Shown here in pieces: positions 30,130-40,391 of a DNA stretch of 64,000 nt (position 1 is the first letter of the stretch; every line of letters begins with the position of its first letter). The stretch covers positions 3,472,001-3,536,000 of the forward strand of contig NZ_AP022618.1 of NCBI RefSeq assembly GCF_010731615.1, given 5' to 3'. The notes beneath the pieces were generated by a model that was given only the letters and a program-made list of their open reading frames with translations, did not search any database and was not told where the DNA came from. This DNA comes from Mycolicibacterium insubricum (GTDB lineage: Bacteria > Actinomycetota > Actinomycetes > Mycobacteriales > Mycobacteriaceae). The position numbers and the translations under genes were made by a program.

Positions 30130-30974
30130 GAGCTGAGCTCCTCACGCCGCGCGGCGCGGGAGCCGAGCAGCCGCAGAACGAAGAGGACGGCGAACGAGAG
30201 CGACAGCAGCACAATGGAGATCGCTGCGGCACCGGTCCGGTCGTCGTTCTCGATCAGGGTCCGAATCCACTGCGAGGACACCTCGGTCTCCCCCGGGATG
30301 GCACCGCCGATGAGCACCACCGAGCCGTATTCGCCGATGGCCCGGGAGAACGCCAGTCCGGCGCCGGACAGCAGCGACGGCAGCAGCGCGGGCAGTATCA
30401 CCTTGACGAAGATGATCCGGCCGTTGGCGCCCAGGGACGCCGCGGCCTGTTCCACCTCGGTGTCCAGTTCGATGAGCACTGGCTGCACCGAGCGGACGAC
30501 GAATGGCAGCGTCACGAACAGCAGTGCCACCCCGATGCCCCACCGGGTGTGCTGCCAGTGCAGCCCGACCGGGCTGCCCGGCCCGTACAGCGCCAGCATC
30601 ACCAGGCTCGCGACGATGGTGGGCAGGGCGAACGGCAGGTCGATGACGGCGTCGACGATGCGCTTGCCGGGGAAGTCGTCGCGGGTGAGCACCCAGGCGA
30701 CCAGCAGGCCGAACACCGCGTTGACCAGCGCCACGCCGAACGAGATGGTCAGCGTGACCCGGAAGGACTCCAGTGCGGCGTTGGAGGTGATCGCGGCCCA
30801 GAAGCCGCTCCACCCGCCCTTGGCGGACTGCCACAGGATCGCCGCCAGCGGCAGCAGCACGATCACCGACAGCCACAGGGTGGCCGCGCCGACCCGCAGC
30901 GACAGTCCCCCTCGGTGCACCGCCCGGGCGGCCACCGGGGGCGGCGGGGCGGTGTCGGTCTCGGTGATGGTCAT
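30126..30974 (-). CDS. cysT: Sulfate ABC transporter permease CysT
   Basis: A 282-residue permease with six predicted membrane segments; the EAA loop reads EQAAASLGANGRIIF followed by ILPALLPSL. The first 35 residues are a proline- and alanine-rich cytoplasmic tail. I start it at ATG 30974, which overlaps the subI stop as ATGA, instead of an in-frame codon further upstream inside subI. It pairs with CysW. Confidence 0.94.
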   Translation of the reverse strand: MTITETDTAPPPPVAARAVHRGGLSLRVGAATLWLSVIVLLPLAAILWQSAKGGWSGFWAAITSNAALESFRVTLTISFGVALVNAVFGLLVAWVLTRDDFPGKRIVDAVIDLPFALPTIVASLVMLALYGPGSPVGLHWQHTRWGIGVALLFVTLPFVVRSVQPVLIELDTEVEQAAASLGANGRIIFVKVILPALLPSLLSGAGLAFSRAIGEYGSVVLIGGAIPGETEVSSQWIRTLIENDDRTGAAAISIVLLSLSFAVLFVLRLLGSRAARREELSS

Positions 30975-32002
30975 CCCGTCGCCTTCTTGTAGATCGCGGT
31001 GATGGAGCCGTTCTCCTTGTCGAACAGCGCCGAGTCGACGACCTTCCAGCCGCCCAGGTCCGCAATGGTCCACAGTTTCGCCGGGGCCGGGAAGTCGTCG
31101 GCGAACTCCGCGGCCACCGCCGGGTCGACCGGGCGGAAGCCCGACTGGGCCCACAGCCGCTGACCGGCCGTCGTGTAGAGGAAGTTGTTCAGCGCCACCG
31201 CCTGCTTCTGGTGGGCGCTGTTGCTGGTCACGGCGACCGGGTTGTCGATCTTGAACGTGTCGGCGGGCACCACGTAGTCGATGGCGTCGCCCCGGCGCTT
31301 GGTGTTGATGGCCTCGTTTTCGTAGCTGATCAGCACGTCACCGGTGCCGCGCAGGAACACGTCGGTGGCCTCCCGGCCGGAGCCCGGGCGGGTCCGGACG
31401 TGGCCGTTGACCAGCTCGTTGATGTAGGCCAGTCCGGCCGCCGGGTCCGCGCCCCCGGCGCTCTTGGCGGCATACGGCGCCAGCAGGTTCCACTTGGCCG
31501 AACCGGAGCTCAGCGGGCTGGGGGTGACCACCTCGATACCCGGCGCCAGCAGGTCGTCCCAGGAGTGGATGTTCTTCGGGTTGCCGGGGCGGACCACCAG
31601 CGCGACCACCGAGCCGAACGGGATGCCGTGGGTGACCCCGGAGTCCCAGTCCGCGGCGACCTTGCCGGCCTTCACCAGCCGGGTGATGTCGGGTTCGACG
31701 GAGAAGTTGACGATGTCGGCATTCTTGCCGTCGACGACCGAGCGGGACTGGTCCCCGGATGCGCCGTAGGAGGTGGTCACGCCGACATCCGCGCCGTCCG
31801 GGGTGGCCGTGAACGCCGGGATGATCACGCTCCACCCCGGTTCGGGGACGGCGTAGGCGACCAGCGTCAAGGTAGTCGCCGCGTTGCCGGACCGGTCGCC
31901 GGGAACGTCGCTGGCGCCGCCACCGCACCCGGTCAGCACCGCCAGCGTCGCGGTCAGCGCGACCGCCGGGCGCCATCGCCATCGGGATCGGGATGTGTTC
32001 AT
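30971..32002 (-). CDS. subI: Sulfate-binding lipoprotein SubI
   Basis: A 343-residue extracytoplasmic solute-binding protein. The N-terminus is a lipoprotein signal: basic residues (RSRWRWR), a hydrophobic core and the lipobox LTGC, so the mature protein should be lipid-anchored outside the membrane. The body matches the sulfate/thiosulfate-binding family, with SYGASGDQSR and VNFSVEPDI near the anion site. I start it at ATG 32002 because it gives a normal signal peptide and has GGAAGG upstream; the longer reading runs through the cysteine leader region. First structural gene of the sulfate transport operon. Confidence 0.93.
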   Translation of the reverse strand: MNTSRSRWRWRPAVALTATLAVLTGCGGGASDVPGDRSGNAATTLTLVAYAVPEPGWSVIIPAFTATPDGADVGVTTSYGASGDQSRSVVDGKNADIVNFSVEPDITRLVKAGKVAADWDSGVTHGIPFGSVVALVVRPGNPKNIHSWDDLLAPGIEVVTPSPLSSGSAKWNLLAPYAAKSAGGADPAAGLAYINELVNGHVRTRPGSGREATDVFLRGTGDVLISYENEAINTKRRGDAIDYVVPADTFKIDNPVAVTSNSAHQKQAVALNNFLYTTAGQRLWAQSGFRPVDPAVAAEFADDFPAPAKLWTIADLGGWKVVDSALFDKENGSITAIYKKATG

Positions 32003-32126: not shown

Positions 32127-32213
32127 TCAGCGACAACAACACGAATCGGCGACGGTGAACCCGTCCACAACGGTCAGGGCCGACTGCCCCGCCCCGTGTC
32201 CCGCCGATTTCAT
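32127..32213 (-). CDS. Leaderless poly-cysteine leader peptide upstream of subI
   Basis: ATG 32213 to TGA 32127 encodes 28 residues ending SCCCR; the three cysteines are consecutive TGT codons. There is no ribosome site, and a -10 element TACTGT lies seven bases before the ATG, so the mRNA should begin at the start codon. This matches the leaderless cysteine leader class of mycobacteria. The stop is 124 nt before subI, with a hairpin between. When cysteine is scarce, ribosomes would pause at the TGT run and allow the sulfate transporter operon to be expressed. Confidence 0.85.
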   Translation of the reverse strand: MKSAGHGAGQSALTVVDGFTVADSCCCR

Positions 32214-34574: not shown

Positions 34575-35840
34575 TCACCAGGCGAGGTCGAACTCGACCA
34601 CCGACTGGGTGGGCACCACCAGCGCGACCGGAGTGAACCGCTGCGAATTCTCTTCGCGCGCAACGCCGGTCAGCACCCGCCCGCCGTGCCCGTCGCTGCG
34701 CCCGGGCACCTTCATGGTCAGCGTCACCGACCTCCTCGCGCGGGCGTGCGCCCCCAGACTCAGGTAGAAGGCGGCGCCGGGCTCCAGCGGTCCGTCGATC
34801 ACCGTCCCGGTGGCATCGACCACCTGCGCGCCGTCGCCGGCCAGCGCGGCGGCCGAGCCGGCGCACAGTCGGAACGGCCCGATCACCGCATCGTCCTGCG
34901 TGACGAGGACCCCGGCCGCGCCGACGGCGGGCGCGGCGCTGTGGGCGCGGGCCCATCGTGCACCCTCGATCAGGTAGCGGTAGGCGTGCACGATGCGCGG
35001 TGAGTTGCGGTACACCGCGCAGCCGGCCAGCGAGAAGGCCGTCTCGCCGATGGTGGCCGGCCCGTCGACGGTCAACCGATAGTGCCGGTGCCCGCGGCGG
35101 GTATGCCCGTGGCCGTGCGACACCGTTGCACCAACGCCCAGTGGCTTGTGGTGCTCGCCGGAACCGGCGGTCAGCGCCGAGGCCGCGACCTCGTCCCAGC
35201 GCTGTCCGTCGACCGACTTGTGCAGCCGCACCGTGACCGGGCCGGATCCGGCGATGTCCACGGTGTAGCCGTCGAGTTCGATGTCGTCGGCGAATTCGAC
35301 GGTCACGCCGCGCTCGTCGTGCACGACGCGGTCGGGCCGGTTGCGCGGGCGGGTGTCCAGCGCCAGCCCGTTGGTGAAGTGCCAGATCGCCGCCTGGGTG
35401 GCGGCGATGGCCTCGTGCTCGCCGATGTGCCCGGCGCCCAGCGGGTATCCGGCGTCTCGCAGTCGTCGGCTCAGTTCCGCGGCGCGCAACGTCGGGAAGG
35501 AGTTCCGCAGGATCCAGTCGATCTCCACCTCGAACGAGCGGGCCCGCGCATTCGGCAGGGCGGCAAAGGACTCCACGTCGTAGCGCGACGGCCGCAGCGG
35601 CGCGACGCCGGTGAAGTCCAGCGAGTAGGCCTCCACCCCGGGGTTGAGCCGGATCAGGTCGGTGCGGGCGAATGTACCGTCGGTGAACACGATTCGGTCG
35701 ACGGTGTGCGAGTAGGTGCCGCCGTGATAGCGCGTCAGCCGGGACAGTTCGATCGCCGGGCGCGGCTGGATCCGGCGACGCACGACGACGGGACGCGCGG
35801 CGGGCAGCAGGCGCCCGGCGGCTATGGGTAGGGAGGTCAT
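34575..35840 (-). CDS. TQxA (thioester-fold) domain protein lacking the thioester cysteine
   Basis: A 421-residue protein of the TQxA/thioester-domain family. The N-terminal domain (about 35-170) has THTVDRIVFTDGT-like sequence, PGVEAYSLDFTG and the hallmark AATQAAIWHFTNGL. In classic thioester adhesins the first motif is Y-C-hydrophobic-D/E and its cysteine bonds to the TQxA glutamine. Here that residue is serine (codon TCG), so a Cys-Gln thioester cannot form. A beta-rich C-terminal half follows. I see no signal peptide, sortase motif or membrane segment, so it appears cytoplasmic unless exported unusually. It is preceded by a poly-cysteine leader peptide, suggesting cysteine-dependent expression. 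Divergent from the encapsulin operon. Function unknown. Confidence 0.75.
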   Translation of the reverse strand: MTSLPIAAGRLLPAARPVVVRRRIQPRPAIELSRLTRYHGGTYSHTVDRIVFTDGTFARTDLIRLNPGVEAYSLDFTGVAPLRPSRYDVESFAALPNARARSFEVEIDWILRNSFPTLRAAELSRRLRDAGYPLGAGHIGEHEAIAATQAAIWHFTNGLALDTRPRNRPDRVVHDERGVTVEFADDIELDGYTVDIAGSGPVTVRLHKSVDGQRWDEVAASALTAGSGEHHKPLGVGATVSHGHGHTRRGHRHYRLTVDGPATIGETAFSLAGCAVYRNSPRIVHAYRYLIEGARWARAHSAAPAVGAAGVLVTQDDAVIGPFRLCAGSAAALAGDGAQVVDATGTVIDGPLEPGAAFYLSLGAHARARRSVTLTMKVPGRSDGHGGRVLTGVAREENSQRFTPVALVVPTQSVVEFDLAW

Positions 35841-35880
35841 GGCTGGTTGTCGGCTTTCGCATACTGAGGCGGCGCGCTCG

Positions 35881-35910
35881 GGATCACACCGCCGGATTCA
35901 GGGCGGATCC
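35881..35910 (-). promoter_or_regulatory. Hairpin in the leader of the TQxA gene
   Basis: On the minus strand GGATCCGCC can pair with a following GGCGG and GATCC, giving a bulged stem of about nine pairs around CTGAATC. It starts about 20 nt after the stop of the poly-cysteine leader ORF and carries the same GGATCCGC octamer as the other two cysteine leaders. Inferred attenuator element. Confidence 0.5.
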
Positions 35911-35929
35911 ACGACGCAGGACGGAGGCG

Positions 35930-35998
35930 TCAGATACAGCGACAACAACGCACGGCGAAGCATCGCGACATGGCGATGCGCTGCGGTGCGTCAGACAT
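35930..35998 (-). CDS. Leaderless poly-cysteine leader peptide upstream of the TQxA gene
   Basis: ATG 35998 to TGA 35930 encodes 22 residues, MSDAPQRIAMSRCFAVRCCRCI; the final cluster CCRC uses only TGT codons. A -10 element TATGCT lies exactly seven bases before the ATG with no ribosome site, the same geometry as the subI leader. It shares the 13-nt run GTTGTTGTCGCTG with that leader. The frame stays open upstream (to 36169), but the promoter position supports the short form. The stop is 89 nt before the TQxA gene. Confidence 0.8.
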   Translation of the reverse strand: MSDAPQRIAMSRCFAVRCCRCI

Positions 35999-36005
35999 GG
36001 GCCCG

Positions 36006-36035
36006 AGCATACGGCACCGTCGGCAGCTGCGCCAA
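36006..36035 (-). promoter_or_regulatory. Promoter of the TQxA cysteine leader
   Basis: Minus-strand TTGGCG (36030-36035) and TATGCT (36006-36011) are separated by 18 nt, a good sigma-A-like arrangement. The -10 lies seven bases before the leader ATG, so the transcript should be leaderless. Confidence 0.6.
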
Positions 36036-36145
36036 GCAAGGCGACCTGTCAAAAAGCCGGCCTGCTCCCCGGCGGTTGCCAGGTTCAATTCAGCCTGCGC
36101 GCAATTCGTGCACCCGGGCACACCGGGGCGCATCATGGACCCGGC

Positions 36146-36176
36146 AAGCCACGTGCCAGGCGATGACACGTGGCTT
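36146..36176. repeat. Perfect 10-bp inverted repeat upstream of the encapsulin gene
   Basis: AAGCCACGTG (36146-36155) and its exact inverse CACGTGGCTT (36167-36176) flank an 11-bp spacer, giving a 21-bp centre-to-centre distance, two helical turns. Each arm contains the palindrome CACGTG. It ends 44 bp before the encapsulin ATG and just upstream of CATATT (36182-36187), a possible -10 element, so an operator is plausible; an RNA hairpin is the alternative if transcription starts further upstream. Confidence 0.6.
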
Positions 36177-36220
36177 CAGTCCATATTTCGATCACTCCCG
36201 TCGTGGAAAGAGGAACGTCG

Positions 36221-37144
36221 ATGACATCGGCCCAGAACGAATCCCAGGCACTCGGCGACCTCGCCGCACGGCAGCTTGCCAATGCCACCAAGACCGTCCC
36301 CCAGCTGTCCACGATCACTCCGCGGTGGCTGCTGCACCTGCTGAGCTGGGTGCCCGTCGAGGCCGGCATCTACCGGGTGAACCGGGTGGTCAACCCCGAG
36401 CGGGTCGCCATCCACACCGAGGAGGGCGCGGGCACCTCCGAGCCGCTGCCGCAGACGTTCGTCGATTACCAGACCAGCCCGCGCGAGTACACGCTGCGCG
36501 CCATCTCCACCCTGCTGGACGTGCACACCCGAGTCTCGGACCTGTACTCCAGCCCGCACGATCAGATCGCCCAACAGCTGCGGCTGACCATCGAGACGAT
36601 CAAGGAACGCCAGGAGTCCGAGCTGATCAACAACCCGGAGTACGGGCTGCTGGCGCAGGTCACCCCGGAGCAGACCATCAAGCCGCGCACCGGCGTCCCG
36701 ACGCCCGACGACCTGGATTCGCTGCTGACCAAGGTGTGGAAGACGCCCGGCTTCTTCCTCACCCACCCGCTCGGTGTCGCCGCGTTCGGCCGCGAGGCCA
36801 CCCGGCGCGGTGTGCCGCCGGTCGTGGTCAACCTGTTCGGGGCGCAGTTCATCACCTGGCGCGGCATCCCGATCATCCCCAGCGACAAGGTGCCGGTGCA
36901 GGACTCCAAGACCAAGTTCATCCTGATCCGTACCGGCGAGGAGCGCCAGGGCGTGGTCGGGCTGTTCCAGCCGGGCCTGGTCGGCGAGCAAGCCCCGGGG
37001 TTGTCGGTCCGCTTCACCGGGATCAACCGGTCGGCGATCGCCTCCTACCTGGTAACGCTGTACAACTCGCTCGCGGTGCTCACCGAGGATTCGCTCGCCG
37101 TGCTCGACGGCGTCTCGGTGGACAAGTTCCATGAGTACAAGTAA
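36221..37144 (+). CDS. Family 2A encapsulin shell protein (MMP-I/SrpI type)
   Basis: A 307-residue HK97-fold capsid protein, the length of mycobacterial major membrane protein I and cyanobacterial SrpI. It has the family 2 N-terminal arm (residues 1-50) and RWLLHLLSWVPVEAGIYRVNRV, and lacks the cyclic-nucleotide-binding insertion of family 2B. Family 2A shells self-assemble into icosahedral compartments that enclose a cysteine desulfurase and accumulate elemental sulfur. I start it at ATG 36221 with AGAGGA upstream. Its stop overlaps the start of the desulfurase gene by 14 nt, so shell and cargo are coupled. The name major membrane protein is historical; no membrane segment is needed. Confidence 0.93.
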   Translation: MTSAQNESQALGDLAARQLANATKTVPQLSTITPRWLLHLLSWVPVEAGIYRVNRVVNPERVAIHTEEGAGTSEPLPQTFVDYQTSPREYTLRAISTLLDVHTRVSDLYSSPHDQIAQQLRLTIETIKERQESELINNPEYGLLAQVTPEQTIKPRTGVPTPDDLDSLLTKVWKTPGFFLTHPLGVAAFGREATRRGVPPVVVNLFGAQFITWRGIPIIPSDKVPVQDSKTKFILIRTGEERQGVVGLFQPGLVGEQAPGLSVRFTGINRSAIASYLVTLYNSLAVLTEDSLAVLDGVSVDKFHEYK

Positions 37145-38768
37145 CGAGCCGGCCGGGGTCCCGACCGCCGAGGAGATCGCCGCGCTGGCCGGTCAGATGT
37201 ACTCGTCGGGTGTACGGCCCGGCCCGGACACGCCGCCGCAGCTGGTTCCGGTGGCACCGCGGGGCAGCGCACCGGCCGATCCGCTGCTGCCCGACCTGAC
37301 GGCCTTCGCGGTGCCCTCGGGCCTGGTCCCGACGGTGCCCGGGGTGCTGGCCGGGGCCCGGCCCACCGCACCGGTCGCCCCGCGGGGCTCGGCGCCTGCG
37401 TGGCCGGACTCGGCACCGAGCGTGCCGAGTGGGATCTGGTCACCGGCGCAGCCGCAGACTTCGGGCAACGAGGCCGACTATTACTTCCTGTCCGGGCCCT
37501 CGGCCCGGCCGGGGGTGCTGGCCCCGGCTCCCGACGTCCCGGATTCGCACGAGGTCTTCGATGTGCACGCGCTGCGGGCCGATTTCCCGATTCTGGGAGA
37601 GACGGTCAACGGCCGGCCGCTGATCTGGTTCGACAATGCGGCGACCACCCAGAAGCCGCAGGCGGTCATCGACCGACTGGCGCACTTCTACGCGCACGAG
37701 AACTCCAACATCCACCGGGCGGCGCACGAGCTGGCCGCCCGGGCCACCGACGCGTACGAGGATGCCCGGGAGACGGTGCGCCGGTTCATCAACGCACCGC
37801 GGGCCGAAGACATCGTGTTCGTCCGGGGCACCACCGAGGCGATCAACCTGGTCGCCTACGCATGGGGCGGCAAGAACCTCGGCCCCGGTGACGAGATCGT
37901 CCTCACCCACCTGGAGCACCACGCGAACATCGTTCCGTGGCAGTTCGTCGCCCGCCAGACCGGTGCGGTGATCAAGGTCGCCCCGGTCGACGACGCGGGG
38001 AACCTGCTGCTGGCGGATTTCGAGCGGCTGCTGGGTCCGCGGACGAAGCTGGTGGCGGCCACCCACGTGTCGAACGCCCTGGGCACCGTCACCCCGGTGC
38101 ACGAGATCGTCGAGCTCGGCCACCGCTACGGCGCCCGGGTGCTGATCGACGGGGCACAGTCGATCCCGCACATCCCGATCGACGTGGCATCGCTGGGCGC
38201 GGATTTCTTCGTGTTCTCCGGGCACAAGATCTTCGGGCCCACTGGCATCGGGGCGCTGTACGCCACCGAGGACGCGCTGGCCGAGACCCCGCCGTGGCAG
38301 GGCGGCGGGAACATGATCACCGACGTCACCTTCGAGCGGTCGCTGTTCGCACCGCCCCCGGGCCGGTTCGAGGCAGGCACCGGGAACATCGCCGACGCAG
38401 TCGGGCTGGCCGAGGCGCTGCGCTATGTGGAGAAGGTCGGCATCGAGCGGATCAACGCCTATGAGCATGCGCTGCTGGACTACGCCACGCCGCTGCTGGC
38501 CGACATCCCCGGGGTACGGCTGGTCGGCACCGCCGACGAGAAGGCCAGCGTGCTGTCGTTCGTGCTGGCCGGCCACGAGCCGTTGGAGGTCGGCAAGGCC
38601 CTGAACGCCGAGGGTATTGCGGTGCGCGCCGGGCATCACTGCGCCCAGCCGATTCTGCGCCGGCTCGGTTTGGAGGCAACGGTGCGCCCGTCGTTCGCCT
38701 TCTACAACACCTTCGACGAGATCGACGTGTTCATCGCCGCGGTGCGGCGGATCGCGGCCGACGGCTGA
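37131..38768 (+). CDS. Encapsulin cargo cysteine desulfurase (SufS-like, disordered N-terminus)
   Basis: A 545-residue PLP enzyme. Residues about 140-545 form a SufS-type desulfurase: WFDNAATTQKPQAVI, the aspartate in DGAQSIPHI, the PLP lysine in FSGHKIFGPTG and the catalytic cysteine in RAGHHCAQP. It would remove sulfur from cysteine as persulfide. Residues 1-139 are an extra proline-, alanine- and glycine-rich, low-complexity region. That region holds two copies of PVAPRGSAPA (40-49 and 81-90), each followed by VPSG (61-64, 98-101). In known family 2A systems this N-terminal extension directs loading into the shell. Inside the shell the product would be stored sulfur. Followed by cysK and cysE after a hairpin. 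Confidence 0.92.
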   Translation: MSTSNEPAGVPTAEEIAALAGQMYSSGVRPGPDTPPQLVPVAPRGSAPADPLLPDLTAFAVPSGLVPTVPGVLAGARPTAPVAPRGSAPAWPDSAPSVPSGIWSPAQPQTSGNEADYYFLSGPSARPGVLAPAPDVPDSHEVFDVHALRADFPILGETVNGRPLIWFDNAATTQKPQAVIDRLAHFYAHENSNIHRAAHELAARATDAYEDARETVRRFINAPRAEDIVFVRGTTEAINLVAYAWGGKNLGPGDEIVLTHLEHHANIVPWQFVARQTGAVIKVAPVDDAGNLLLADFERLLGPRTKLVAATHVSNALGTVTPVHEIVELGHRYGARVLIDGAQSIPHIPIDVASLGADFFVFSGHKIFGPTGIGALYATEDALAETPPWQGGGNMITDVTFERSLFAPPPGRFEAGTGNIADAVGLAEALRYVEKVGIERINAYEHALLDYATPLLADIPGVRLVGTADEKASVLSFVLAGHEPLEVGKALNAEGIAVRAGHHCAQPILRRLGLEATVRPSFAFYNTFDEIDVFIAAVRRIAADG

Positions 38769-38807: not shown

Positions 38808-38864
38808 TCGGGGACTGTGGTGCAGTAGTCAGAGGGATTGCCTCGCGGAAGGGATGAAGGGCTG

Positions 38865-39800
38865 ATGAGCAAGATTTACGACAACGTCACCGAGTTGGTC
38901 GGACGCACCCCCCTGGTACGGCTGAACCGGCTCACCGAGGAACTCGGCGCCCAGGTCGTTGTCAAACTCGAGTTCTACAACCCCGCCAACAGCGTCAAGG
39001 ACCGCATCGGAGTGTCCATCATCGACGCCGCCGAACGCGTCGGCGCGCTGCGTCCGGGCGGCACCATCGTGGAGGCGACCAGCGGAAACACCGGTATCGC
39101 GCTGGCCATGGTCGGCGCCGCCCGCGGCTACCGGGTGATCCTGACCATGCCGGACACCATGTCCCTGGAACGACGGGCGATGCTGCGGGCGTTCGGCGCC
39201 GAGATCGTACTGACCCCGGGCTCCGAGGGGATGGCCGGCGCGGTCAACAAGGCCCGGGAGATCATCGCCGAGACCGACAACGCGGTGGCCGCCGACCAGT
39301 TCGCCAACCCCGCCAACCCGGAGATCCACCAGCGGACCACCGGCGAGGAGATCTGGAACGACACCGACGGCGCGGTCGACATTTTCGTCGCCGGCATCGG
39401 CACCGGGGGCACGCTCACCGGCGTCGGCCGCAATCTGAAGGCCCGCAAGCCCGAGGTGCAGGTGGTCGGAGTCGAGCCCAAGGATTCGCCGATCCTGACC
39501 GGCGGGCAGCCCGGCCCGCACAAGATCCAGGGTCTGGGCGCGAACTTCATCCCGGAGGCGCTCGACCGGTCGGTGTACGACGAGATCATCGACGTCGACG
39601 CCGACGACGCGATCCGGGTGTCCCGGGAGCTGGGCACCCGGGAGGGCATCCTGGGCGGCATCTCCGCCGGCGCCAACGTGTGGGCCGCGCTGCAGTTGGC
39701 GGGCCGGCCGGAGAACGCCGGCAAGCTCATCGTGGCCGTCATCCCCGACTTCGGCGAACGCTACATCTCGACCGTTCTGTTCGACCACGTCAGAGAGTAG
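38865..39800 (+). CDS. cysK: Cysteine synthase (O-acetylserine sulfhydrylase)
   Basis: A 311-residue PLP enzyme that makes cysteine from O-acetylserine and sulfide. The PLP lysine is in NSVKDRIG (near residue 44), the substrate loop [10 protein letters not shown], and the phosphate-binding glycine loop [12 protein letters not shown]. Length and sequence fit CysK1. ATG 38865 follows GAAGGG at good spacing; an upstream in-frame ATG is less likely. It lies 96 nt after the desulfurase and six bases before cysE. In M. tuberculosis cysK1-cysE sit elsewhere (Rv2334-Rv2335); here they are linked to the encapsulin genes. Confidence 0.95.
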
Positions 39801-39806
39801 ATAAAC

Positions 39807-40391
39807 ATGGCCCTGCTGTCGGTGCTGCGCGAAGATCTGCGCAATGCACGCGGCCACGATCCGGCCGCCCGCGGCGACCTGGAGAACGCACTGGTCTATT
39901 CCGGGCTGCATGCCATCTGGTCCTACCGGTTGGCGCACCGACTCTGGACCCGGCCCGGCCTGCAGGGCCTGGCCCGGCTGCTCTCCCAGTTCACCCGGTT
40001 CGCCACCGGTATCGAGATCCATCCGGGAGCGACGATCGGCCGGCGGTTCTTCATCGACCACGGCATGGGCGTGGTGATCGGCGAGACCGCCGAGATCGGT
40101 GACGACGTGATGCTCTATCACGGTGTCACCCTGGGCGGGCGCAGCCTTCAGAAGGGTAAGCGTCACCCCACCCTCGGCGACCGGGTCACCGTGGGGGCCG
40201 GCGCAAAGGTGTTGGGGCCCATCATGATCGGCGACGACAGCGCCATCGGCGCCAACGCCGTGGTCACCCACGACGTGCCGGCCGAGGCGATTGCCACCGG
40301 CATTCCCGCGGTGGTGCGCCCGCGCACGGAAAAGCAGCGCGAGCCGCTGGTCGACCCGACCAGCTACATCGACCCGGCGATGTATATCTAG
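39807..40391 (+). CDS. cysE: Serine O-acetyltransferase CysE
   Basis: A 194-residue hexapeptide-repeat transferase making O-acetylserine from serine and acetyl-CoA. After the helical N-terminus come left-handed beta-helix turns ([40 protein letters not shown]) and the catalytic histidine region RHPTLGDRV. The protein ends in isoleucine (DPAMYI), the residue by which CysE tails dock in the CysK active site to form the cysteine synthase complex. It is the short bacterial form (EpsC-like). The stop overlaps the convergent heme oxygenase gene by 4 nt. Confidence 0.93.

Follow-up and report, generated by a model that had tools for sequence, protein, structure and literature searches.

The locus described here raises the question of how cells choose to fill or draw on a family 2A encapsulin, and it offers a concrete factor that may take part in this choice. 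The locus lies in a 64-kb stretch of Mycolicibacterium insubricum DNA (the window, whose positions are used for all coordinates), where a short leaderless open reading frame (ORF) ending in clustered cysteine codons precedes a gene for a protein of the TQxA or thioester domain (TED) family. This leader and TED are divergent from a cluster that encodes a family 2A encapsulin, a cysteine desulfurase, CysK and CysE. The explanation that we consider best, with a probability of roughly 0.75 for the whole, is that the leader is a cysteine-responsive attenuator and that the protein it controls is a thioester-less TED that serves the encapsulin.

The leader (MSDAPQRIAMSRCFAVRCCRCI, 22 amino acids) was located by sequence scan at 35930..35998 on the minus strand and ends in RCCRCI, with TGT TGT CGC TGT ATC TGA as its final codons. 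A -10-like hexamer of a leaderless promoter, TATGCT (36006..36011, minus), ends 7 nt 5' of the leader ATG, so that a transcript would start at or beside this ATG. The leader stop is separated from the TED ATG by 89 nt (35929..35841). All of this anatomy can be seen in the sequence and agrees with a preliminary description of the same DNA, which had reported the 22-residue leaderless ORF, its promoter hexamer and a TQxA-family gene 89 nt beyond. As a chance expectation, 100 windows of 64 kb were simulated with a first-order Markov model that kept the dinucleotide composition of the window. When both strands were scanned, these yielded a single poly-cysteine ORF with a leaderless box, as compared to two in the real window. 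With about 0.01 expected per 64 kb, the leader ORF is not a chance occurrence.

Conservation of the leader with TED, which the preliminary description had proposed as a check, is evident across the genus. We searched 396 genomes of the genus for TED and for the encapsulin family NF041162, and found a TED match in 144. A total of 145 loci were scanned, comprising the TED places minus those of two genomes (G070 and G139) plus one extra encapsulin copy, and near-full TED was found in 138 of these loci from 136 genomes. A leader, defined as a short ORF whose last 9 residues include 3 or more Cys, preference being given to starts that have a TANNNT box 5-8 nt upstream, precedes TED in 138/138 near-full loci, the window's included. 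These leaders are 21-33 amino acids long with 3-9 Cys among their last 9 residues. Their box lies 6 nt from the start in 70 loci, 7 nt in 67 and both 5 and 7 nt in one, with TATAGT (59 loci) and TATGGT (47 loci) as the commonest boxes. The leader is also kept before all five scanned TED remnants that have no encapsulin (L142-L146), and a locus with a broken TED (L141) has a poly-cysteine ORF without a box.

The preliminary description had additionally placed a hairpin behind the leader. RNA structure is indeed predicted there, but it is better described as a long-range pairing of the cysteine tail with the ribosome-binding region of TED. In the minimum free energy fold of the window, the arm formed by the Cys codons and stop (35946..35930, minus) pairs as an anti-Shine-Dalgarno arm with 35846..35867 (minus), the region that fold and footprint modelling assign to TED ribosome binding and that contains GCGAAAGCCGACAAC. 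To compare loci, arms were anchored on the last GGAAG, GAAAG, GAGAG or AAGGAT motif whose start lies 5-21 nt before an in-frame start. An anchor motif and an in-frame TED start were found in 138/138 loci, with 85-212 nt (median 94) between the leader stop and the anchored start. Pairing of anchored arms averages -14.7 kcal/mol versus -7.0 for shuffled arms, and a locus' own pairing is better than all 20 of its shuffles in 113/138. Longer-arm duplexes are nearly equal for own and swapped partners (-20.6 versus -19.5) because the arms are alike across species. In many species the pairing joins GUUGA-UUUUCUG, which consists of the end of the cysteine tail, the stop and the first bases beyond, to a complementary CAGAAAGUCAAC at the ribosome-binding site, or else joins GUUGA-UUUCCUGA to UCAGGAAGAUCAAC. 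In the window and a relative (L003), the register is shifted into the Cys codons themselves. Tails with UUUUC occur with GAAAG in 39 loci and with GGAAG and GAGAG in one each, tails with UUUCC occur with GGAAG in 33 and with GAAAG in 2, and the remaining loci have other tails. When the arms are reduced to two states, 119 of the 123 scored rows match. For the leader RNA, no Rfam family was obtained at gathering score.

Codon usage within the leaders also bears on this pairing. The last 9 codons of the 138 leaders use TGT over TGC by 569 to 116, as compared to 9 to 53 for Cys codons earlier in the same leaders and 45 to 87 in the TED genes, and the leader stop is TGA in every case. The TGT bias of the tail and the invariant TGA are the outcome expected of a pairing constraint. 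Modelling of ribosome coverage in silico across the same loci gave a corresponding picture, with mean openness of the TED start region rising from 0.27 in free RNA to 0.53 when 30 nt of the tail are covered. Covering the tail raised openness by more than 0.1 in 119 loci and lowered it by that much in none. As controls, covering the 5' end of the leader raised openness in 4 loci and lowered it in 10, and covering the spacer raised it in 3 and lowered it in 2.

Several observations weigh against this computed switch. The choice of a purine-rich anchor before an in-frame start itself makes it easier to find pairing with U-rich tails. When traced on the TED tree, the tail state has 2 changes and the ribosome-binding state 6, and matched arm changes amount to only 2 independent events (sign test p 0.5, not significant), so arm covariation is weak as proof. 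RNAalifold applied to an automatic MAFFT alignment of 80 loci gave 3 pairs and missed the helix; the arms are misaligned in that alignment, which is why the anchored comparison was used instead. Finally, the gain in openness is at most 0.1 in 17/138 loci with the whole leader covered and in 19/138 with the tail alone covered.

In the mechanism that we propose, transcription would begin at the ATG of the leader, with immediate translation of its 22 codons. With ample Cys-tRNA, the ribosome would pass the tail and depart, and the Cys codons and stop, now free, would close the Shine-Dalgarno region of TED by pairing with it. When Cys-tRNA is scarce, the ribosome would stall on the Cys codons and mask this arm, leaving the TED start open. 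The anatomy of the RNA is consistent with translational attenuation in response to cysteine and lends support to the attenuator reading of the preliminary description. We consider it highly probable that the leader controls TED in this manner, the response to cysteine itself being what we infer from the fit.

A leader of this sort could instead act on transcription, as has been proposed at ilvB1 of M. tuberculosis, with stalling determining whether an anti-terminator forms ahead of TED or a terminator, either intrinsic or Rho-dependent, takes effect. Transcriptional attenuators of this type have been proposed in mycobacteria (PMC13236596), and the window's leader RNA does fold better than most shuffled versions (z -2.27, with 5 of 200 as good). 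However, a scan of this one sequence detected no terminator-like site in the leader. The single such site in 35700-36350 is a hairpin with a TTTTT tail at 36073..36056 (minus), on the same strand as the TED leader and upstream of its start. Across loci, moreover, the pairing partner is the Shine-Dalgarno region, and control by termination appears improbable.

Cysteine tails are able to bind metal or become oxidised. The leader might accordingly sense redox state or a metal bound by the nascent Cys peptide, or it might merely couple translation, and an influence of redox has been raised in the literature (PMC4633059). Set against this are the architecture of the leader, which is the same as that of published cysteine-responsive leaders, the varying number of Cys in the tails and the synonymous preference for TGT. 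The last two indicate that codon and RNA matter rather than peptide, and we give these alternatives to cysteine sensing little credence.

The protein under control of this leader has 421 residues (34575..35840, minus, with its ATG at 35840) and scores above the curated cut-offs of PF08341 (35.7 bits, cut-off 22) and TIGR03934 (58 bits, cut-off 30.4). Its assignment to the TQxA family therefore stands, but the label is misleading, as it belongs to a subfamily without the thioester cysteine. By definition, TED proteins form their thioester with the Cys of a [YFL]C motif (PMC4450167), and this Cys is present in the aligned YC motif of canonical actinobacterial TEDs. In the 138 mycobacterial proteins, TQA and W153 are invariant and Tyr-Ser replaces this motif in 138/138; in the window the alignment places the Ser73 codon (35622..35624, minus) at the thioester Cys position. 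There is likewise no conserved partner Gln, since the only Gln present in at least 95% of these proteins is Gln149 of the TQxA helix. By pattern, 13 of 15 canonical TEDs have a TQSLI-like strand, and opposite this strand the mycobacterial proteins have an invariant T403-P404, where the local alignment is uncertain by about 1 residue. The subfamily is poor in cysteine (0.23% overall, with none in 66/138 and two in the window's TED), and His142 is nearly invariant in it but not seen at the corresponding position of the canonical alignments listed.

A name in the TQxA/TED family would ordinarily suggest a secreted thioester adhesin with the leader being incidental, and the PF08341 and TIGR03934 matches speak for such an adhesin. 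C-terminal hydropathy, which does not cleanly separate the groups (mean 1.37 and maximum 2.20 in the mycobacterial TEDs), is also compatible with it. In contrast, peak hydropathy of the first 60 residues averages 0.81 and reaches 1.6 in 3/138 of these proteins, as opposed to at least 1.74 in 15/15 scored canonical TED frames. Thus 135/138 have no signal-peptide-like stretch as judged by hydropathy, a measure used in place of a dedicated predictor. Nor is there an LPXTG-like motif, with the family consensus stopping shortly after FDxxW. We set the secreted adhesin aside as very improbable because the thioester Cys is missing, no partner Gln is conserved and 135/138 have no signal-like stretch. 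Mycobacterial proteins of this group that are annotated as "TQxA/thioester domain" probably form no thioester, judging from their sequences.

An AlphaFold model of the window's TED has a mean pLDDT of 80.1, with low confidence for its N-terminal part. Residues 165-274 (35019..35348, minus) form in this model a galactose-binding-like beta-sandwich, computed to be of the discoidin/CBM32-like fold. A Foldseek search with the whole model, which includes the low-confidence N-terminal part, gave poor full-length matches, and those listed are occupied by this insert. TED structures do not figure among the matches listed, to which little weight can be given. A sequence search of the PDB returned only the Cpa ancillary protein (E 0.51). 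The most likely reading is that TED derives from secreted TED proteins, is poor in cysteine, no longer has the thioester and has acquired a discoidin/CBM32-like insert. It probably resides in the cytosol and has a tie to the encapsulin, both the location and any action on the encapsulin being drawn from the features above and from gene linkage.

This linkage is seen directly in the genomes. An NF041162 match is present in 136 of the 396 genomes (130 over the cut-off), and a comparison of the lists by eye places all 136 among the 144 TED genomes. TED is thus found in 136/136 genomes with an encapsulin match, which affirms the other half of the conservation check proposed in the preliminary description. 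In 137 of the 138 near-full loci TED is divergent from the encapsulin, the exception (L101) being at a contig edge. The eight TED genomes without an encapsulin match (G070, G089, G139, G233, G265, G283, G344 and G358) contain TED pieces only. In the five scanned remnants without encapsulin, TED is shortened by apparent deletions behind the retained leader. Carriers given by name (80 of 110 loci) include M. lepromatosis, M. lepraemurium, M. gordonae and M. asiaticum.

Beyond the genus, a profile built from 35 TEDs gave matches in 93 of 397 genomes from the same order. Among the matches listed, 13 are of the same genus with at least 568 bits and the others have at most 61 bits, and reading frames in 17 loci outside the genus (L161-L177) resemble ordinary TED proteins. 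NF041162 exceeded its cut-off in 16/397 order genomes, and of the 15 listed, 13 belong to the genus and two (G424 and G471) do not. From this distribution of both proteins, the TED-encapsulin pair looks mycobacterial.

TED could nonetheless be controlled by cysteine and yet be independent of the encapsulin, with the two being neighbors merely through a shared involvement in cysteine metabolism, and a number of exceptions pull in this direction. Two loci keep TED and its leader though intact encapsulin and desulfurase have been lost. In one of these (L019) the encapsulin runs for its first 35 residues and then continues into a permease-like frame, and no other encapsulin or desulfurase match was found in the locus, with near-full TED and leader adjoining. 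In the other (L140) a deletion fuses the encapsulin start to the last part of the cysteine desulfurase and TED remains. A second 2A encapsulin copy in one genome (L147 in G098) has no adjoining TED, and the encapsulin match of another genome (G076) is split in two overlapping pieces. Furthermore, the two listed genomes with a 2A encapsulin outside the genus are absent from the genome-wide TED matches, and no TED or poly-cysteine leader was recognised beside their encapsulins. The encapsulin side is also generally without a poly-cysteine leader, as described below. Against independence stand the presence of TED in every genome with an encapsulin match and its apparent decay by deletion in all five remnant loci from which the encapsulin is missing. 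On balance, we view independence as somewhat unlikely, and the gene arrangement moderately favors the view that TED and the encapsulin are functionally tied.

The cluster opposite TED, which the preliminary description correctly recognised as a head-to-head encapsulin operon, begins with the family 2A shell protein (36221..37144, plus; NF041162, 501 bits, cut-off 380). This is followed on the plus strand by the cargo cysteine desulfurase of the N-terminally extended kind (37131..38768; NF041166, 838 bits, cut-off 800), cysteine synthase CysK (38838..39800; TIGR01139, 452 bits; taken from a TTG as provisional start) and a serine O-acetyltransferase of the CysE/EpsC type (39807..40391; NF041874, 248 bits, and TIGR01172, 235 bits). 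Among 105 encapsulins, 101 are without any Cys. We considered a poly-cysteine leader for the encapsulin itself and rejected it, as a short poly-cysteine ORF of any kind was found in 4/105 upstream regions, a count made with no chance control. An operator shared by both promoters was likewise discarded, given that the commonest 8-mers occur in at most 45 of 124 regions and for the most part represent fragments of the TED -10 box and of encapsulin ribosome-binding sites. Other frequent 8-mers include GCCGTATC (27 of 124 regions). An inverted repeat, GCCACGTG-N11-CACGTGGC, is present at 36148-36174, roughly 50 nt upstream of the encapsulin start, and could be a candidate operator of the shell operon.

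Elsewhere in the window, a second poly-cysteine leaderless leader was detected by sequence scan at 32127..32213 (minus). It ends in SCCCR and precedes an ORF for a SubI-type sulfate-binding lipoprotein (30971..32002, minus, with 32002 as chosen start; TIGR00971, 158.4 bits, cut-off 155.5). The preliminary description had noted this likeness to subI, and had counted the TED leader as a third of its kind, a number that is to be corrected as scans of the window gave two with a -10 box.

As to what TED does, TED made during cysteine shortage would serve the neighboring 2A encapsulin and cysteine desulfurase, for example by curbing desulfuration or by helping the release of stored sulfur. A tentative and rather doubtful proposal is that TED is a controller of the sulfur stored in the encapsulin; if true, TED would be the first such controller known, through which a bacterium could tap the sulfur kept in an encapsulin. 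An equally speculative extension is that in mycobacteria a secreted thioester adhesin has been recast as an intracellular, cysteine-poor nanocompartment accessory that docks on the shell or on the desulfurase and there halts cysteine use or unlocks sulfur. The features that would be read in this manner are the replacement of Cys by Ser, the nearly invariant His142, the discoidin-like insert and the ribosome switch. As TED nearly always adjoins the shell in mycobacteria and is seemingly wired to sense cysteine shortage, it provides a testable proposal for sulfur mobilisation from a nanocompartment with a long history of research as an M. leprae and M. avium antigen (PMC8049743).

Comparison with known systems indicates which parts of this locus are new. 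A 2015 paper described Cys-rich leaderless upstream ORFs (uORFs) before cysA2, Rv0485 and nirA (PMC4633059), PMC13236596 cites translational attenuation by uORFs of this kind in M. smegmatis, and six regulatory Cys-rich ORFs have been predicted in M. tuberculosis (PMC9094748). The published attenuators are alike in having a leaderless short ORF with a C-terminal Cys cluster, at which stalling was proposed to open a downstream ribosome-binding site (PMC4633059). They differ in that they precede sulfur-assimilation enzymes, whereas the leader described here precedes a TED-family protein beside an encapsulin. The preliminary description regarded the TQxA gene as a new member of this regulon, and this holds for a leader before an encapsulin-linked TED but not for the uORF as such, since a ribosome-protected uORF upstream of the M. 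abscessus TQXA gene MAB_0219 was published in 2016 (PMC4974804). That uORF, which is probably the same leader, is a mere list item in the paper, the main text of which does not contain "cystein". Taken by itself, the leader adds a new member to a class already known, and the M. abscessus uORF had in part anticipated it. In the open-licence literature, from which many journals are absent, we found no paper that joins TQXA or a thioester domain with an encapsulin or a mycobacterial uORF with an encapsulin, and no word starting with "thioester" occurs in the main texts of PMC8049743 and PMC8346489. The novelty is the pair, as read from the genomes, in which the predicted switch is combined with a thioester-less, cysteine-poor TED linked by position to a sulfur-linked encapsulin. 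Like the TEDs of Gram-positive bacteria (PMC4450167), the mycobacterial protein has, by sequence, a TED core with a TQxA helix, and its C-terminal half can be aligned to canonical actinobacterial TEDs. It differs from them in that Ser takes the place of the thioester Cys, a conserved partner Gln and an evident secretion signal are lacking, and a discoidin/CBM32-like insert is present. The encapsulin resembles the family 2A encapsulin SrpI (PMC8049743) in its shell, its desulfurase cargo and its cysteine-metabolism neighbors. However, SrpI is itself induced by sulfate starvation (PMC8049743), whereas at this locus the poly-cysteine leader precedes the divergent TED and not the shell.

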